DNA from: an uncultured bacterium
GTDB taxonomy: Bacteria; Acidobacteriota; Aminicenantia; Aminicenantales; CALLJL01
Length of the DNA: 64,000 nt
Assembly (NCBI GenBank): GCA_938092135.1
Contig: CALLJL010000003.1
Span: 124,001 to 188,000 of the forward strand
Direction of reading: 5' to 3'
Positions 5,326-14,799 of the stretch are shown piece after piece (position 1 is the first letter of the stretch; each line of letters starts with the position of its first letter). The notes beneath the pieces were generated by a model that searched no databases, had not been told where the DNA came from, and saw only the letters and a program-made list of their open reading frames with translations. The position numbers were made by a program, and so were the translations under genes.

Positions 5326-5483
5326 TTAGATATTTGATTTAGGAGGATTAAATTCAAATAGTTTTTAAAAGTCAAAACAGAGCCATAATTTAAGATTTTC
5401 TTTAAGATAATCTTTTTTGCTGAAAATCAAAGCTTAGGTGAGAAATTTTAGGCTAAAATGGCTCTTAATTGGAGGAATTAAAT

Positions 5484-6602
5484 ATGGAAAGGAAAAAGAG
5501 GTTAAAGCTGCTTTTATTGGGCACTTTTATTTTATCTTGGCTACCAAATTTAATTTATGGTCAGGAATGGTTAAATATTCTCGACAGGATTTACCCCTTT
5601 GGTTCACCTTCTGGTTATGAGCATGCGATTATTAATGAGATCAAATCCCTTTTGCCTACTGGTTGGTCAGTTCGGATTGATAATCTGGGTTCCTTGATTG
5701 TTTTTTCGGGCGAAAAAATTGAGTTTCTTTTAGCTTCTCCGGTCGATGAGATTGGTTATTTTGTGAGTGGTTTGACCTGCGATGGCTATATTCGGATTGA
5801 TCGAGCGCTAAATGCGCCCTATCGTCTTTTTGATAATCATCTCATGGGACACGGCGTAATTATCTGGACAAAGAATGGGCCGATTAGGGGAATTGTCGCC
5901 CAGCCCGCGGTGCATATTCTGACCCGAGACAGAAGAGAGCAACTCGAAAGAGGCGTGAGCCTTGATGATATTTATATTGATGTTGGGGCGCGAAGCGACG
6001 CTGAAGCTAAAGCTAAGGGAATACGAATTCTTGATGCTGTGACGAGAGAAAGAAAACTGACTCTCCTCGGTTTCCGGCGTCTCAGTGGCCTGGCCTTAAG
6101 TGATAAACTTTTTCCTTCGCTCTTAATATCGGCAATTTCCACAATTCAAAATTCGGCGCAAACTAAAGGACTGAGCTTTGCCTGGGTGGCTCAAGCGAGA
6201 GTAAATGCCAGAGGCGTTAAAGGAGCTCAATCTTTGGGTCTTTTAAATATAAAAAATCGCTTTCCTTTAAAAAAAGCCATTATTTTGACCGGCTGGCCTG
6301 AAGATGAGACCAAAGAAGGAGCAAAACTAGGTCAAGGCCCGGTTGTTATTTTTGCCGAGCCTAGTCCATCCGCCCTGGCCGAGTCTTTTATAAAGCTAGC
6401 TTCAGCTGAGAAAATTGAACTTCAGGTTTTATCAGGCAAGGAAAATTCTTGGCTCCGGCCATTTCAGAGCGAAGGCGTGGAAGCAATCATTTTGGGAGTA
6501 AGTATCAGAGATATTTTTACTCCGGCAGAAACAGTTTCTTTAAATGATGTTAATAATTTATTTAAATTGATAACTTTCTGGATAAAAAGGAGACCCCAAT
6601 GA
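5484..6602 (+). CDS. M42-like exported protein lacking the metal-binding residues (pseudoenzyme)
   Basis: 372-aa exported relative of M42 glutamyl aminopeptidases, homologous along its length to the next gene. The ATG at 5484 follows GGAGG by 8 bases; a TTG 15 bases earlier overlaps that site and was rejected. Residues 1-26 are a signal peptide ending NLIYGQ. The fold is kept (fold-equivalent ASPVDEIGYF, 84-93), but the zinc ligands are gone: His is Pro86, the DDRAG loop is absent (ALSDKL), the catalytic EE pair is replaced in AQARVNARG (236-244), and the C-terminal AHS is lost. The reading frame is intact, so it is probably maintained. M42 enzymes form large tetrahedral shells, so a structural or regulatory partner role for the active paralogue is plausible inference. 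Confidence 0.75.
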   Translation: MERKKRLKLLLLGTFILSWLPNLIYGQEWLNILDRIYPFGSPSGYEHAIINEIKSLLPTGWSVRIDNLGSLIVFSGEKIEFLLASPVDEIGYFVSGLTCDGYIRIDRALNAPYRLFDNHLMGHGVIIWTKNGPIRGIVAQPAVHILTRDRREQLERGVSLDDIYIDVGARSDAEAKAKGIRILDAVTRERKLTLLGFRRLSGLALSDKLFPSLLISAISTIQNSAQTKGLSFAWVAQARVNARGVKGAQSLGLLNIKNRFPLKKAIILTGWPEDETKEGAKLGQGPVVIFAEPSPSALAESFIKLASAEKIELQVLSGKENSWLRPFQSEGVEAIILGVSIRDIFTPAETVSLNDVNNLFKLITFWIKRRPQ

Positions 6603-7711
6603 AATTATTATTTGAGCCTAAAATAAATTGGAAAGCTAAAGTGGTCATATTTCTGATAGCTCTTGTTTCCATTTTTCTTCCTCTTTTAGCGCAAGAAGTT
6701 TCTCCCTGGAATCTGCTTAAGGAATTGATTCTTTTGCCTGGAGTTTCTGGCCGAGAAGAAAGGGTGGCCGAAGTAATAGCTTCCAAGATACCAGCAGGGC
6801 TTAAGTGGCAGAAAGATGAAATGGGCAATGTTTATTTTACCTATGGTAATGGGAAACCCCATCTTCTTTTCGTGGCTCATATGGATGAACTTGGCTTTTT
6901 TGTTCAGGAAATTACACCTCAGGGAACTTTAAAATTAAGGTCGACGGGTGGCTTCTTGCTCTGGAATTATGAGGGCGAAGGCGTGACGATCTGGACAAAA
7001 AAAGGAAAGGTTGAGGGTATTGTCAGACCGAGAAAGGGTTATCTTGCGGCTGAAGCCCCGCCTTTTAATTTGGAAAATTTAGAGGTCGAGGTTGGCGCTG
7101 AAAGTAGTAACGAAGTTCAGGAAATGGGAATCCAAATCGGCGACATGGTAACAATAAACAAAAGAATTATTGAGCTTCGAACTGATATTCTTGCTTCTCG
7201 AGCTGTAGATGATCGAGCTGGCTGTGCCGCTCTTCTGGCAGCAGCCAAAAAAATAGTCTGGTCTAAAATTAAATCGAAGAAGATTACTTTCGCCTGGAGT
7301 GTTCAAGAAGAAATTGGCTTGAGAGGAGCAGCCAGCTTAGCCGAGAAGATGATGGTTGATTATGTTTTTGCCATTGATACTTTTGTTTCCACAGATTCAC
7401 CCCTTGAAAATCAACGGTTTGGTTTGGCTAGGGTTGGGGAAGGAGCGGTTGTTAGGGCTATTGATTCCTCCACTATTGTGCCTCATCATGAACTGGAGAA
7501 AGTAATTAAAATTGCCTCTGCCCGAGGAATTTCATTGCAACTCGCCAATTCCCGAGGTGGCAATGATGGTTCAGTTTTCATTTCTAAGGGAGCGGTCAAC
7601 ATCCCCCTTTCTTGGCCCGGTGCTTATGCCCATTCTTTTATTGAAAAAATTCATCGTTCGGACCTTGAATCTTTAACTAATTTAATTATTGCTATTGTTG
7701 AGGATTGGTAG
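6599..7711 (+). CDS. Exported M42 family aminopeptidase (active-site complete)
   Basis: 370-aa M42 metallopeptidase with an N-terminal signal or anchor (about residues 14-31, ending LLAQ). All family ligands are visible: His94 and Asp96 in AHMDELG, Asp204/205 in VDDRAG, the catalytic and ligand pair Glu237-Glu238 in VQEEIG, Asp260 in AID, and His345 in AHS. It is translationally coupled to the inactive paralogue by an ATGA overlap. It likely trims amino-terminal residues from peptides. M42 enzymes are usually cytoplasmic, so export is notable, though consistent with the other secreted peptidases here. Confidence 0.87.
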   Translation: MKLLFEPKINWKAKVVIFLIALVSIFLPLLAQEVSPWNLLKELILLPGVSGREERVAEVIASKIPAGLKWQKDEMGNVYFTYGNGKPHLLFVAHMDELGFFVQEITPQGTLKLRSTGGFLLWNYEGEGVTIWTKKGKVEGIVRPRKGYLAAEAPPFNLENLEVEVGAESSNEVQEMGIQIGDMVTINKRIIELRTDILASRAVDDRAGCAALLAAAKKIVWSKIKSKKITFAWSVQEEIGLRGAASLAEKMMVDYVFAIDTFVSTDSPLENQRFGLARVGEGAVVRAIDSSTIVPHHELEKVIKIASARGISLQLANSRGGNDGSVFISKGAVNIPLSWPGAYAHSFIEKIHRSDLESLTNLIIAIVEDW

Positions 7712-7975: not shown

Positions 7976-8378
7976 CTAATTTTGGGCAAGGCTTGTCTGA
8001 AGCATTTTTAAAGTGATGGGGTCTATTTGGTCAAAAACATTGAAAATAGGTTTTTGTGGAGGGCAGAGCTCACTTATAACGGCTAAAGCTGCTCGTATGG
8101 CCCGAATGACTTCAGCTGAATTAATATTTTTTTAATTTATCTTTTTCTTCCATGAGGCAGGTTGTAGGAAAAATGTCTTCTCCAAGTTCTGCTCTTAATA
8201 GATCTTCATAAAGGGTTATGGTCTCCTTGTCTTTACAAATAAAGGCAAGCCGGGTTTTTTTATCAAGCGAAGCCAGTTTCCGCCAGGTTGCAGGCGACAT
8301 TTGGTTAATAAGAATATGAATATCTCTGGGCATGTTCGCTGTAATTTTCCTAACTTCATTGAGGTGGAAACCAGCTCA
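7976..8378 (-). pseudogene. Remnant of a regulator-like protein, frameshifted and lacking its N-terminus
   Basis: Reading the minus strand from 8375, a protein-like frame runs through NEVRKITANMPRDIHILINQ and stops at 8121. A second frame from 8125 gives INSAEVIRAIRAALAVISEL and ends at 7976. The two join perfectly if one base is added to the run of seven A residues (plus-strand T at 8127-8133). The joined piece, about 134 aa, has the layout I recall for the effector half of some GntR-type regulators: a nucleotide-like fold opening and an IDP-x-TLKML-type end. No DNA-binding domain is present. Its upstream end meets the TonB receptor frame at about 8376. The family assignment is tentative; the broken state is directly visible. 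Confidence 0.6.
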
Positions 8379-10194
8379 GATAACGCCAGAAAGAAAAATT
8401 GTTGGCCGCGTAGCCGATGATCAGGGAAATCCTCTTCCTGGTGTTTCGGTTGAGCCGACAAGTCCCAAAATGGTTGGAGCCGCCTATTCCGTTACCGATA
8501 AAAATGGAACGTACCGCTTGATGACTCTTCCTTCCGGAACCTATGATATAACTTTCTCTCTTCCTGGATTTGAAAAGGTTGTCCGCAAGGGTATTTCCCT
8601 TGTATTAGCGCAAACCATAGTTCTGAATGTAATCATGGAAGTGGCTACGTTAGAAGAAGAGGTGGTAGTAGTTGGCAAAAGCCCGCTTATTGATGTTAAA
8701 AGTACGGTTAAAGGACAGGTAATGGCAAGGGATGTCATCATGAGTCTTCCCCGAGGGCGAAACTTCGACTCTTTAATCAACCTGGTTCCCGGTGTTCATT
8801 ATGAAAGTAAAATTGGTGGCTTTACTACTGACGGGGCTTCCGGAGCTGAGAATATCTGGCCCGTTGATGGCACTGATGTTACCAGTATTCACGTGGGGAC
8901 AAGAGCTCAAAATGTCGTCCTCGAGCTGGTCGATGAAGTTAAGGTAACTGCTTCCGGATATAATGCAGAATTCGGCGGGTCAATGGGCGGAGTTATCAAT
9001 GTAATTACCCGATCAGGTGGTAACACCTTTCACGGAGATTTTATTGCTTATTATAAAAACAATAAGCTGTGGATGAAAGGAAAAGCCCATGATTATTTAA
9101 CGCAGAGCCCTTATAATGTCGATGTTTATGAATATGTCAATGATGATGACCTTTATTTTGATGGTGGAAAGAAAAGAGATTCCTATTATCGAACGGAGTT
9201 CGCCATAAGCCTTGGTGGTTATATTATTAAGGATAGACTATGGTTCTTTGGTGCCTTTAATCCTATTAAGTCTCAGACCAAGGCTTTAAGGGATTTTAAT
9301 TCCCGTAAAGGGCCATTTAGCGAATTTTTAACCAAAAGCTATTATTACAATGGTTCTTTCAAGCTAACAGCTGCTCCTTTGAAAAATCTTCGTCTATCAG
9401 CTAGCTTGGTTAACAATTTTTATAAATACAGAGGTGCTCTGCCGAGAATCAGTGGCACTTCATCAGCTACCTACGATTGGGGAAAAGAAGGCTATGATTA
9501 TCCCGATAATTCCACCGCTTTTCTGGCCGATTATCATCGAGGCAATAATCTCCTCATCAGTCTGCGTGGCGGCTGGCACAAGCAGAATATAACCAATCAG
9601 CAGATAAAACCTCCCGACAGATCAACCTATTATTTTTACACCTCAAATTATATTTATCAAAATGACCCCTTTTTCCAATCTAGGCCTGATTTGCTCCATT
9701 ATGCCTACTGGACCGACTCACCCATTTATCTTGAAACTCAAAAAAGACTCTATGAAAAGTTCAGTAGCAACCTTGATTTTACCTACTATATGAGCTGGAT
9801 GGGCGAGCATGCCTGGAAGGCCGGGATTCAATACATCTGGTTGCATGAGGATGTCCTTGACTGGTCGCCTCACCCCCGAGTTTATATCTACTGGGGAAGA
9901 ACAAGCTATGCCCTTGGTTTCCCTGTCGGCGTAGGTGCGCCCAAGGATAGCCCCTATTATGGACCCTATGGCTATTACTATATCCGGAGCAGCTGGACAG
10001 GTCTCTATGGTGGTGTCTGGAACGCCAGCAGCAATAACTGGGCTCTCTATTTGCAGGATTCCTGGACGATAAAGGATAGATTAACAATCAATGCGGGGAT
10101 CAGGGCAGAAAGTGAATATATTCCTTCCTTTACCGACGACCCGATGTATGCTCATGTAAAAAACCTGTCGACTTTAGTTTTAATGAGAAAATAG
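8332..10194 (+). pseudogene. TonB-dependent receptor, N-terminal piece (5'-truncated and frameshifted)
   Basis: Outer-membrane TonB-dependent receptor of the CarboxypepD_reg type. After the start come a regulatory-like domain (KIVGRVADDQGNPLPGVSVE, about 22-100), a short VVVVGKSP linker, a plug domain (about 105-230, with LPRGRNFDSLINLVPGV) and the first part of the barrel. The start is unsound: the only ATG at 8332 has no ribosome site and gives 16 residues (MFAVIFLTSLRWKPAQ) that are a poor signal peptide, while the region before 8376 belongs to a minus-strand remnant. The true signal peptide and promoter seem deleted. The frame ends early at 10194 because one A is missing at 10158-10163. 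It could be a dead gene or partly an assembly error. Confidence 0.8.
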
Positions 10195-11420
10195 CCCCTC
10201 GGGTCGGGATTATTTATGATGTCTTCGGTGATTCAAGCCTCAAGATTTTTGGCAGTTACGGAATTTATTATGATGTCATGAAGCTTTATATTGCCGTCCT
10301 GAGTTTCGGCGGATGGAAACACAAAAGAGATTTTTACGCCCTTAAGGATCCAGACTGGACAAAGATTGCCTCCAGTGGGCAGATCAATGACCGGGCCAGC
10401 CAGGAAGCCAATAACACCTATGCTGGTACTCTCGATTATTTGCCATCTTCCTTTGACCGGATAGACCCTGATTTAAAGCCTGCCTGTCAAAGTGAGCTTT
10501 CCTTCGGAGCGGAGAAAAAACTAGCTGAAAATGTTTCCCTTTCATTGCGTCTGGTTTATAAGCATCTCATTAGAACCATTGAGGATGTGGGTGCTTTGGA
10601 GTGGGTAGTTGATCCTCAGACAGGCTCCAAAACCTTGGAAGAAATTTTCTACATAACTAATCCTGGCTATGGCTATTCCCGGCCTGTTTCCCAGGGCGGC
10701 AAATTTGCTGATGAGTACTGGCCATGTCCAAAGGCTAAAAGAGATTATTATGCCCTTAATCTATCCCTTGAAAAGAAATTGAGCGATCGTTGGCAAGCGG
10801 GTATAAATTATACCCTCAGCCGAGTGGCCGGCAATTATTCAGGCTTGAATAGTGCTGATGAGGATGGACGTAATGCTCCCAATGTGACTTTGTATTACGA
10901 TGACTGGTTTATTGCCTATGACGTTTATGGAAAGGTTCTGGATGAGCCTTTGCCCCATGATCGAACCCACTACATTAAGGCTTTTGGTTCCTATGTTTTT
11001 CCCTTCGGTTTAACTATTGACTTTACTGCCTATGGTCGAAGCGGGTTGCCCCTTTCAACGAGACTTTATATGAATAATCGCTACATTTATCCTGAAAACC
11101 GTGGCGATTTGGGCCGTCTTCCCTTTACCTTCTGGGCTGATATTTTTATCGAGTATGCCTTGAGGTTGCCTAACAAAACTTCGCTGGCCATAAACTTGCA
11201 GATAGACAATGTTACGAACACTAAAACAATTCAAAGTAAGATCACTGAACTCAATAGGACCTCAATCTGGGCTGATGATAAAGAAATCCTTGATGGCACT
11301 TTAGCCCGAAACTATCGCACCTGGGTACAGACTAAGGGGAATCCCCATCCGGCTTTCGGCCAGTGGTCAACTCGTTTTTCACCCTGGTCAGCCCGCCTTG
11401 GTTTCAAGTTTGCTTTTTGA
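10164..11420 (+). pseudogene. TonB-dependent receptor, C-terminal barrel piece (shifted frame)
   Basis: Continuation of the preceding receptor in the next frame. From 10164 it reads PVDFSFNEKIAPRVGIIYDV, a typical mid-barrel block, through YYALNLSLEKKLSDRWQAG and FTAYGRSG to a terminal LGFKFAF, the aromatic-ended strand recognised by the BAM machinery. The first ATG in this frame is at 10278, but homology clearly begins before it, so 10278 is not a natural start. With one base restored, the receptor would be about 1029 aa from 8332, normal for this class. It meets the DsrE-like gene tail to tail. Confidence 0.82.
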
Positions 11421-12143: not shown

Positions 12144-14753
12144 CTAATTCATTTCAGGATAAAGGAGAGAATTCAGGATGAATTTATAGGTACCATGGGA
12201 CTGGGCTCTGTGCTGAGAGCGGATACCAATGAGAATTATTTTCCCTTTTTTATAGGATAAATCAACGACCGCGGCTTTGCGAACAATTAAATCTTCTCCC
12301 AAAAGCCAGCCACTCAGAAGAATATTTTTCTCCCCGAAGCTGGCCACTACTTTCCTCTCCCATTCTGCCGGTGGGATTCTGGTTTCAAAGGCAAGACTGT
12401 TAACAAACATGGCGGCTATTTTTTCAGGAAAGCCGTATCCAAGAGGCGTTGTATTATCCACATTGAGCTCGAGAAGGGAAGTGGGGCAGAAAAAGCGGGT
12501 TCTTTCCACCCGATCAAGGACATTACGAACCGGTGCCTCTAACTCCCTTATAGCCAGTTCACAGGCCCGATTGAGGGTCACTAAAAGACCACCTTGTTCC
12601 ACAAAAGATTTTAAGGCGTCAATACCTTCTTTTTCTATGCCACCTTCATATTCAGGCGGATAAATGGCAGCCACCATTTGGGGTCTTTCTGGGGATGGCG
12701 TTATTCTACCCGATTTAATTATGTCAGCACTTTCATCAGCGAAAATAATGACATCAAAATCAGCCCTGAGATTAACTTTCTTTTCTTTCATTCCTTTAAA
12801 ATCAGCATTTTTCAAAGTCTTGTAAGGAATGCCGAAATCATCAAACAAATAGCGCGTCCACCCTTCATCCATGTTGCCTCGCCAAGATTGATAAAGGCCG
12901 ATTCGGGGAAATTTAATTTTTGCCTGAGGAATAGATGCAATTTCTTTTAAGCCATAGGCCGGAAGGTGCCATTTCTCGAGCAAAGGTTTTAAAATTTTCT
13001 GAAGATCAGGATTATTGGCCAGAAGAAAGCTACCGGCTGCAAGGTTAAAGCCTTCGCCTTTTACTATTTCTTTGCTTCTCGTGACTTCTACTTTTTCCTT
13101 GAGCAAAGCTATGGCTACCGCAAAGGATGCATTATGGCGGCTATCCAGGGCAAGGAATGGCGATGTTTTTGGATCAGGAACAGTGATTGTTGGATAAGGA
13201 ATGCTTTCAAGCTTAATTAGCTTAGCTTCGAAGGGCTCCTGGATTTCATCACAGCTAACGCCCATTTGCAAGGGAAGTGTCCAGGCAGCATTGTCATAGG
13301 GTGGAACGGGAGGGCCGCCAGGGTACTGACGAATATCTGGATATTCCTGTTTTTCAAGTAAAGCCCAGGCATAGGCCTTATAAGGCTGGCTCATCAAAAC
13401 AACAAAGGAACCGGCCGGATAAAATTTTCCTTGAGCAATAAAATCCTGCTGAGCTTGGTGAATTTCGACCCCACCAAGACGTAAAATTTCTAGCATTCTT
13501 AGGGTGGTAGGATAATCATGTTGCTGGGCGGGGATAACAAAGGCAAAGGGTTCATCCTTCGCCCATTTTTTTTCGATGGCGTCGCGATTCATTAAATAGA
13601 AGTTGAAAAGAAAATCTTCTTTATAAAGAGAGCAGGCTTTGATCAAACTTAAAGAAAGGGTAAGCTCATAGTCGACAATATCGCGCAGACGCCACCAGCC
13701 ACCTTTCCAGGGATCAATGAATTCCATACTTTTTTCATAATAATCTTTGGGAATTTCTGTGGGCTCAATATAAATGGGAGTGGCTACTCGCACTGAGGCT
13801 GCTTCTGAAAGCAAACCAATGGCGTTATGCAACCAAGAAGTATCATCACAGGCGCCAATCCACCAGCCAGTATAGCTTCGGCCATGAACAACTCCCGAAT
13901 AGCCCTTCTGCTGTAGATCATAAGCCATCGCCGTGCCCAGAAGGTTTACTCCTCGCCAGACAAGGGGATGAATATTGGGCAAGGGAGGATTCATATAGGG
14001 AGGAACAAAAAGGCGAGCCCCCGTTGAGCCCATCTGGTGTTCATCGATATGCACCTGGGGAATCCAGGTATGATATTGAACCTGGGCGACGGCTCTTGTT
14101 TCCGCCAGATTAAACATGAAAAAATCACGGTTATTGTCGTGGCCAGCATAATGGTGATAGAGCCAGGGCATGGGGCCTCCTTCATATTTTGTCCCCACAT
14201 ATTTTTTGTACCAGTCGACAACCATTTGGTGGCCATCAGGATTAATAGTGGGTATCAAGAGAACAATAACCTCTTTCAGGACTCTCTCGGCATCAAAGGG
14301 AGTCTGCCCAGTAACAAGTTTGTAGGCAAGTTCCAAGGACATCTGCGAGGCAGCAATTTCAGTGGAATGGAGACTACAGGTTATTAGCAAAATGACCTTA
14401 CCCTCCCTAGACAGCTGTTTCGCCTGCTCTTCGCTCAGACCTCGGGCGTCCCGCAACATCCTGGATATTTCCCGGTAGCGGTCAAGCTTGGCCATATTTT
14501 CTTCTGAAGTAATTACAGCCATGATCATTGGCTTTCTTAGCGTGGTCAGGCCAATTTCCACAACCTTTAACCGAGGCGATTCCTCATCGAGCTTTTGAAA
14601 ATAAGCCTTAATTTGGTTGTAATCGGCCAGCTTTCGATCTTCCCCAACCTTAAAACCTAAGAATTTTTCAGGAGGCGTCTGAGCCGCCAAAGTCAAAGAA
14701 AAATTGAGGATTATAAAAGTCGCGACCAAGCTAATTATCAGACGTTTAGCCAT
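12144..14753 (-). CDS. Large exported M14 family zinc carboxypeptidase
   Basis: 869-aa secreted M14 metallopeptidase. A signal peptide (1-24) ends TLAAQ. The zinc motif is H129-S-T-E132 in CSLHSTEIA, with NPDG at 171-174, NNRD at 207-210 and the third ligand region VHIDEHQ (234-240). The ATG at 14753 follows GAGGAGGT; an ATG 21 bases earlier would place that site inside the coding region. The M14 domain occupies the first ~370 residues. The long C-terminal half contains a glutamine-amidotransferase-like fold (DVIIFADES, LVTLNRACELAIREL), as in other large bacterial M14 proteins. A TTGACA/TAGAAA promoter sits upstream. It likely degrades extracellular peptides. Confidence 0.86.
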   Translation of the reverse strand: MAKRLIISLVATFIILNFSLTLAAQTPPEKFLGFKVGEDRKLADYNQIKAYFQKLDEESPRLKVVEIGLTTLRKPMIMAVITSEENMAKLDRYREISRMLRDARGLSEEQAKQLSREGKVILLITCSLHSTEIAASQMSLELAYKLVTGQTPFDAERVLKEVIVLLIPTINPDGHQMVVDWYKKYVGTKYEGGPMPWLYHHYAGHDNNRDFFMFNLAETRAVAQVQYHTWIPQVHIDEHQMGSTGARLFVPPYMNPPLPNIHPLVWRGVNLLGTAMAYDLQQKGYSGVVHGRSYTGWWIGACDDTSWLHNAIGLLSEAASVRVATPIYIEPTEIPKDYYEKSMEFIDPWKGGWWRLRDIVDYELTLSLSLIKACSLYKEDFLFNFYLMNRDAIEKKWAKDEPFAFVIPAQQHDYPTTLRMLEILRLGGVEIHQAQQDFIAQGKFYPAGSFVVLMSQPYKAYAWALLEKQEYPDIRQYPGGPPVPPYDNAAWTLPLQMGVSCDEIQEPFEAKLIKLESIPYPTITVPDPKTSPFLALDSRHNASFAVAIALLKEKVEVTRSKEIVKGEGFNLAAGSFLLANNPDLQKILKPLLEKWHLPAYGLKEIASIPQAKIKFPRIGLYQSWRGNMDEGWTRYLFDDFGIPYKTLKNADFKGMKEKKVNLRADFDVIIFADESADIIKSGRITPSPERPQMVAAIYPPEYEGGIEKEGIDALKSFVEQGGLLVTLNRACELAIRELEAPVRNVLDRVERTRFFCPTSLLELNVDNTTPLGYGFPEKIAAMFVNSLAFETRIPPAEWERKVVASFGEKNILLSGWLLGEDLIVRKAAVVDLSYKKGKIILIGIRSQHRAQSHGTYKFILNSLLYPEMN

Positions 14754-14799
14754 TACTACCTCCTCTACTTTCATTTTTAATATTTTAATGGTTTGGCTT

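Follow-up and report, generated by a model that had tools for sequence, protein, structure and literature searches.

Two adjacent genes of an uncultured bacterium of the lineage “Candidatus Aminicenantes” (Acidobacteriota) very probably encode an obligate, asymmetric, exported M42 aminopeptidase with composite active sites, for which a heterodimer, a loop geometry, and a catalytic effect are predicted. The genes lie in a contig stretch of 64,000 nucleotides (the window). The upstream gene (positions 5484 to 6602, plus strand) encodes a 372-amino-acid (aa) M42 homolog that is a pseudo-subunit (the dead copy), while the downstream gene (6599 to 7711, plus strand) encodes a 370-aa M42 aminopeptidase with a complete metal and catalytic set (the live copy). 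Sequence comparisons across the phylum show a reciprocal pattern of residue retention and loss, co-occurrence, joint loss, purifying selection, a single duplication, and repeated fusions of the two genes. The reciprocal pattern of one loop histidine strongly implies that the inactive subunit contributes a residue for catalysis.

Gene pair and residue losses

The two genes are coupled by an ATGA stop/start overlap (6599 to 6602, plus strand), and a 4-bp ATGA or GTGA overlap recurs in 22 of 26 pairs from “Ca. Aminicenantes” relatives and in 6 of the 7 separate pairs elsewhere in the phylum in which the dead gene comes first. The dead copy starts at ATG 5484, which has a good Shine-Dalgarno sequence (ggagg at 5471); a TTG at 5469 is just the mechanical start of the open reading frame. 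Judged by eye, both N termini have the appearance of Sec signal peptides, which probably span 5484 to 5561 in the dead copy (MERKKRLKLLLLGTFILSWLPNLIYG) and 6599 to 6691 in the live copy, both on the plus strand.

Both proteins match nearly the whole Pfam profile PF05343 (Peptidase_M42; cut-off of 23 bits), the dead copy with 97 bits (residues 72 to 362 on profile positions 4 to 292) and the live copy with 226 bits. Pfam reported M42 only for the pair, plus M20/M28 side hits, and neither the M16 fold nor the HxxEH motif of the M16B/mitochondrial processing peptidase (MPP) family was found. Catalytic residues were assigned by alignment to PhTET1, MJ0555, and their relatives and are numbered as in PhTET2. 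In the dead copy (plus strand), the metal ligand His68 is replaced by P86 (5739 to 5741), the bridging Asp182 by S206 (6099 to 6101), the catalytic Glu212 and the ligand Glu213 by A238-R239 (6195 to 6200), the ligand Asp235 by T269 (6288 to 6290), and the ligand His323 by F345 (6516 to 6518). Because all five metal ligands and the catalytic Glu are replaced, the dead copy is a non-peptidase homolog and not an M42 peptidase. The live copy has the five ligands and the catalytic Glu of the family (H94, D204, E237, E238, D260, and H345) and lacks the conserved histidine of the Pro-Pro-His (PPH) loop, where it has Tyr148. Pfam and the alignment thus confirm an earlier note on this DNA, which had described an ATGA-overlapping tandem M42 pair whose first copy lacks the metal and catalytic residues and whose second copy has them all. 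The one exception is the auxiliary HxD aspartate (D88 in the window, D70 in PhTET2), which is kept in the dead copy and in 53 of 53 dead units; Glu at the position equivalent to Glu213 occurs in 0 of 54 dead units.

An AlphaFold2 model of the dead copy has a mean pLDDT of 90.2 and a pTM of 0.86, and its best fold matches in the PDB are M42 tetrahedral (TET) aminopeptidases, with TM-scores (target) of 0.76 to 0.88. The dead copy is confidently predicted to retain the M42 fold across its full length, as the earlier note had stated from the letters; the signal peptide that it also claimed for this copy is supported by eye.

Reciprocal loop histidine and proposed mechanism

M42 enzymes possess a flexible loop with a PPH motif, and in TET2 the loop residue H123 acts across the subunit interface, with mutants raising KM up to ten-fold (PMC8993905). 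In the M18 aspartyl aminopeptidase DNPEP, the active site of one subunit is completed by His170 of the other, and the H170F substitution abolishes activity; the authors proposed loop swapping for M42 as well (PMC3472314). In the cryo-EM structure of PhTET2 the loop His lies more than 20 Å from the active site, so the trans contact is transient even in known enzymes.

By alignment, the dead copy retains the trans-acting loop, PAVHILTRDRR (5904 to 5936, plus strand), whose H144 (codon 5913 to 5915) aligns with the PPH-loop His123 of PhTET2 (PMC8993905). The live copy has Y148 (7040 to 7042, plus strand) at the loop-His position of other M42 enzymes. The alignment places a loop His in all 53 of 53 dead units, in 2 of 55 live units, and in all 68 solitary M42 proteins, a set composed of sequences from Acidobacteriota, other bacteria, and archaea and of two PDB sequences. 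Tyr occupies the same column in 35 of the 39 separate live units. The complete catalytic set, for which Asp or Glu was allowed at the Asp235 position when solitary M42s were scored, is present in no dead unit, in all solitary M42s, and in every complete live unit but one, which is frame-broken at a contig end. Fisher tests of the reciprocal pattern gave 6e-26 and 2e-31, values that are descriptive only because the sequences are kin.

The same column emerged from an unsupervised scan of the whole alignment. Only one column, that of the loop His, is kept in solitary and dead units and lost in live units; the reverse scan, for columns kept in solitary and live units and lost in dead units, returned seven, namely His68, Asp182, Glu212, Glu213, His323, and two Gly. 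The loop His is also one of 8 fully invariant columns among 322 in the phylum-wide dead clade. Two fused chains of one genus (G059 and G089) carry His at the live loop position (PRLGHL and PRFGHL), so that the loss in live copies is not absolute; because both sit inside the live clade, a Tyr-to-His reversion is the probable explanation. Separately, the live copies of the f2 family (G018, G024, G030, and G044; L064:9125-10426, L066:9133-10401, L067:2103-3362, and L070:2538-3809) have a Pro/Gln/Ala-rich insert of ~50 to 70 residues directly after the lost-His loop, at the position where the live loop would face the dead pocket.

From this pattern of retention and loss, the most likely role of the dead copy is to complete the active site of the live copy in trans. 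The live subunit would provide the two-metal site and the catalytic Glu, and H144 of the dead subunit would cross the dimer interface and hold the substrate and the tetrahedral intermediate, a role modeled on those of His123 of PhTET2 and His170 of human DNPEP in their homo-oligomers. The ancestor would have been a symmetric M42 dimer, in which the loop His was given and received on both sides. One gene duplication would then have allowed labor to be split, with the dead copy losing its own metal site; as a dead subunit offers no active site, the live loop would have come to serve nothing and its His would have drifted away. The two halves would now be mutually dependent and produced 1:1 through ATGA coupling or fusion.

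As a modeling device, with no claim about the organism, a dead-W-live read-through chain was taken from the G047 contig (L154), where the two genes share one frame interrupted by a single TGA. Its AlphaFold2 model (pLDDT of 76.4, pTM of 0.76) was built on a shallow alignment of 24 rows, a subset chosen by testing since MAFFT otherwise placed rows of unfused dead proteins against the live half. The model fits a defined arrangement of the dead and live halves relative to each other, to which it lends weak support. In both AlphaFold2 models the loop has low confidence.

It is conceivable, though we consider it unlikely, that, in addition to its donation of the loop His, the emptied pocket of the dead copy is a second functional site, which would dock the live loop (PR-x-x-Y) or bind a peptide and would make the pair an allosterically gated or exosite-guided peptidase and not just a half-active one.

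Distribution, pairing, and history of the two copies

Relatives within the Acidobacteriota were gathered by a genome search and by a scan with the live alignment. The dead-copy profile hit 72 of 396 Acidobacteriota genomes, a count that includes ordinary solitary M42s. After the loci were read, separate dead and live genes were found outside the order in 10 genomes, and dead and live halves in one frame of ~710 to 800 aa (typically ~740 aa) in about 16 genomes, several of which are truncated where the contig ends; within the order, a fused pair occurs in G041. On the trees, the fused state implies no fewer than three changes for the live side and five for the dead side. In G251 (L120) and G368 (L122) the order is reversed, with the live gene followed by the dead gene and without the 4-bp overlap, and the reciprocal pattern is unchanged. 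Two other genomes (G047, L154:3603-3614, and G037, L175:4136-4147) have the dead and live genes in frame with one TGA and 9 bases between them, a near-fusion.

The fusions bear on a solely structural or gating role of the dead copy, in which homodimers of each kind would assemble together into a tetrahedral shell of mixed composition, with the dead copy shaping its pores or chamber and taking no part in catalysis. There is a precedent for such a shell, as heterododecamers of PhTET2 and PhTET3 form from their homodimers, albeit in vitro and with both homodimers active and complete in their sites (PMC4220976), and the intact M42 fold of the dead copy would suit it. However, this role explains neither the loss of the live loop His, which would harm a live:live dimer, nor the retention of the dead loop His as one of so few invariant columns, and the fusions favor a dead:live unit; we regard it as improbable. 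The earlier note had proposed equal production and a mixed shell with a structural, gating, or substrate-binding dead copy. Its conserved pseudoenzyme partner, made 1:1 and probably in a mixed assembly, is supported, while the trans-completion favored here assigns that partner the more specific role of donating a trans-acting loop His.

Among 59 relatives in the order, an intact live copy is always accompanied by a dead copy directly upstream or by the tail of one at a contig edge. G001, of the same genus, might have been taken to lack the dead copy, but its live gene lies at a contig end and is preceded by the final ~30 codons of a dead copy (...DMATPAEAVSLADVDSLAKLLALWYERRL), and this exception was rejected. 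Nine more “Ca. Aminicenantes” loci, from a separate collection, have the pair, with one dead copy cut by a contig end. In G011 and G036, where the live gene has been reduced to debris, the dead gene is likewise debris or absent altogether, so that the two genes have been lost jointly. The earlier note had suggested a search for the pair in other genomes and had said that relatives without the first copy, or with fragments of it, would point to simple decay, and the survey found no lone intact live copy.

This pairing leaves a very small probability for the dead copy being an independent exported peptide-binding protein that neighbors the peptidase gene by chance. Such a protein would account for its own probable signal peptide and for the residues that are invariant in dead copies within the order (D88, P141, R151, and R243). 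Yet a dead copy without a live gene was never found among the loci examined, the two are repeatedly fused and lost together, and the dead copy bears the very residue that is missing from the live copy.

A tree built with the trait columns removed resolves the dead units as one clade (100/100) and the live units as another (100/97), the two being sister clades. A solitary M42 of G129 (L124, G129:C86) groups with them to the exclusion of other M42s (100/99). Within this group, the G129 protein is the sister of the live clade (98/92); it has retained the loop His (PSTHL) as well as the catalytic set and is likely a relic of the state before labor was divided. This topology indicates that one duplication preceded the split of labor and that the live lineage lost its loop His after G129 had branched off. 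Loss and gain each map to a single branch, and the loop-His counts are therefore not independent events; the strength of the pattern is its long maintenance and its column specificity. That the pattern is an alignment artefact, or that the His is structural and non-catalytic, is scarcely credible. The loop is indeed flexible and of low confidence in the models, but the G-V-V-x-x-P framing around it aligns without gaps in every group, most live units have Tyr at the identical column, and a structural role would hold for the live copies too, which have nevertheless lost the His.

Selection has acted on both copies. In close pairs, dN/dS (NG86) is 0.10 to 0.35 for the dead copies and 0.07 to 0.27 for the live copies, values at pS above ~0.7 being saturated and excluded from inference. 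The dN/dS check proposed in the earlier note therefore came out for purifying selection on the dead copy. A decaying pseudogene, which the missing catalytic residues and the somewhat faster divergence of the dead copies (mean column identity of 49% versus 57% for live copies) might suggest, is refuted by these ratios, by open frames across the phylum, by the invariant loop His, and by the fusions, and we give it practically no credence.

Known systems and genomic neighborhood

With the M42 tetrahedral aminopeptidases (PhTET1, PhTET2, PhTET3, MJ0555, and TmPep1050) the pair shares a common fold, the metal site (live copy), and the PPH-type loop (dead copy), at 16 to 27% structure-based identity and TM-scores (target) of about 0.75 to 0.88. 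The known enzymes are homo-oligomers with a metal site and a loop His in every subunit, whereas here the two are split between paralogs. Known M42 TET aminopeptidases are also cytosolic, while the acidobacterial pair appears to be exported. In human DNPEP the site is likewise completed by a loop His of the other subunit, but in symmetric homodimers without an inactive partner and in a separate family of the MH clan. MPP and the bacterial two-gene M16B peptidases, which the proposed heterodimer would resemble in its way of working, offer another parallel, in which an inactive homolog gives needed elements to an active one, from two genes or in a fused chain (PMC11266112); they differ in having the unrelated M16 fold and an alpha subunit that supplies a glycine-rich loop and not a His in reciprocal loss. 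As in MPP, the inactive homolog described here is obligately paired with an active one, according to co-occurrence, joint loss, and fusions.

Literature searches of open-licence papers found no published M42 pseudoenzyme partner, in agreement with the earlier note, which could recall none, and a 2024 review of metallopeptidase pseudoenzymes makes no mention of M42 (PMC11266112). If the proposed trans-completion is correct, this would be the first M42 aminopeptidase found to need a pseudoenzyme as its partner, and an unusually clear example of reciprocal loss in which a trans-completed active site is split between paralogs. The pair would also provide natural evidence on an unsettled point, whether the His of the flexible M42 PPH loop truly acts across the interface, since that His is lost where the neighboring subunit has no active site and kept without exception where it has one. 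Furthermore, many proteins annotated as “M42 aminopeptidases” in Acidobacteriota are predicted to be misannotated.

Upstream of the pair, relatives often have in common a GlcD-type FAD oxidase and a dihydroorotate-dehydrogenase-like protein, neither with an obvious functional link to the pair. Downstream in the window, a gene resembling TonB-dependent receptors (8332 to 10194, plus strand) resumes in another frame at 10278 to 11420, which is open from about 10160; this split (10160 to 10280, plus strand) is a frameshift or an assembly error. C69 and M14 peptidases with exported-looking N termini lie at 194 to 1810 and 12144 to 14774 of the window, less than 7 kb from the M42 pair, which suggests a peptide-scavenging neighborhood.
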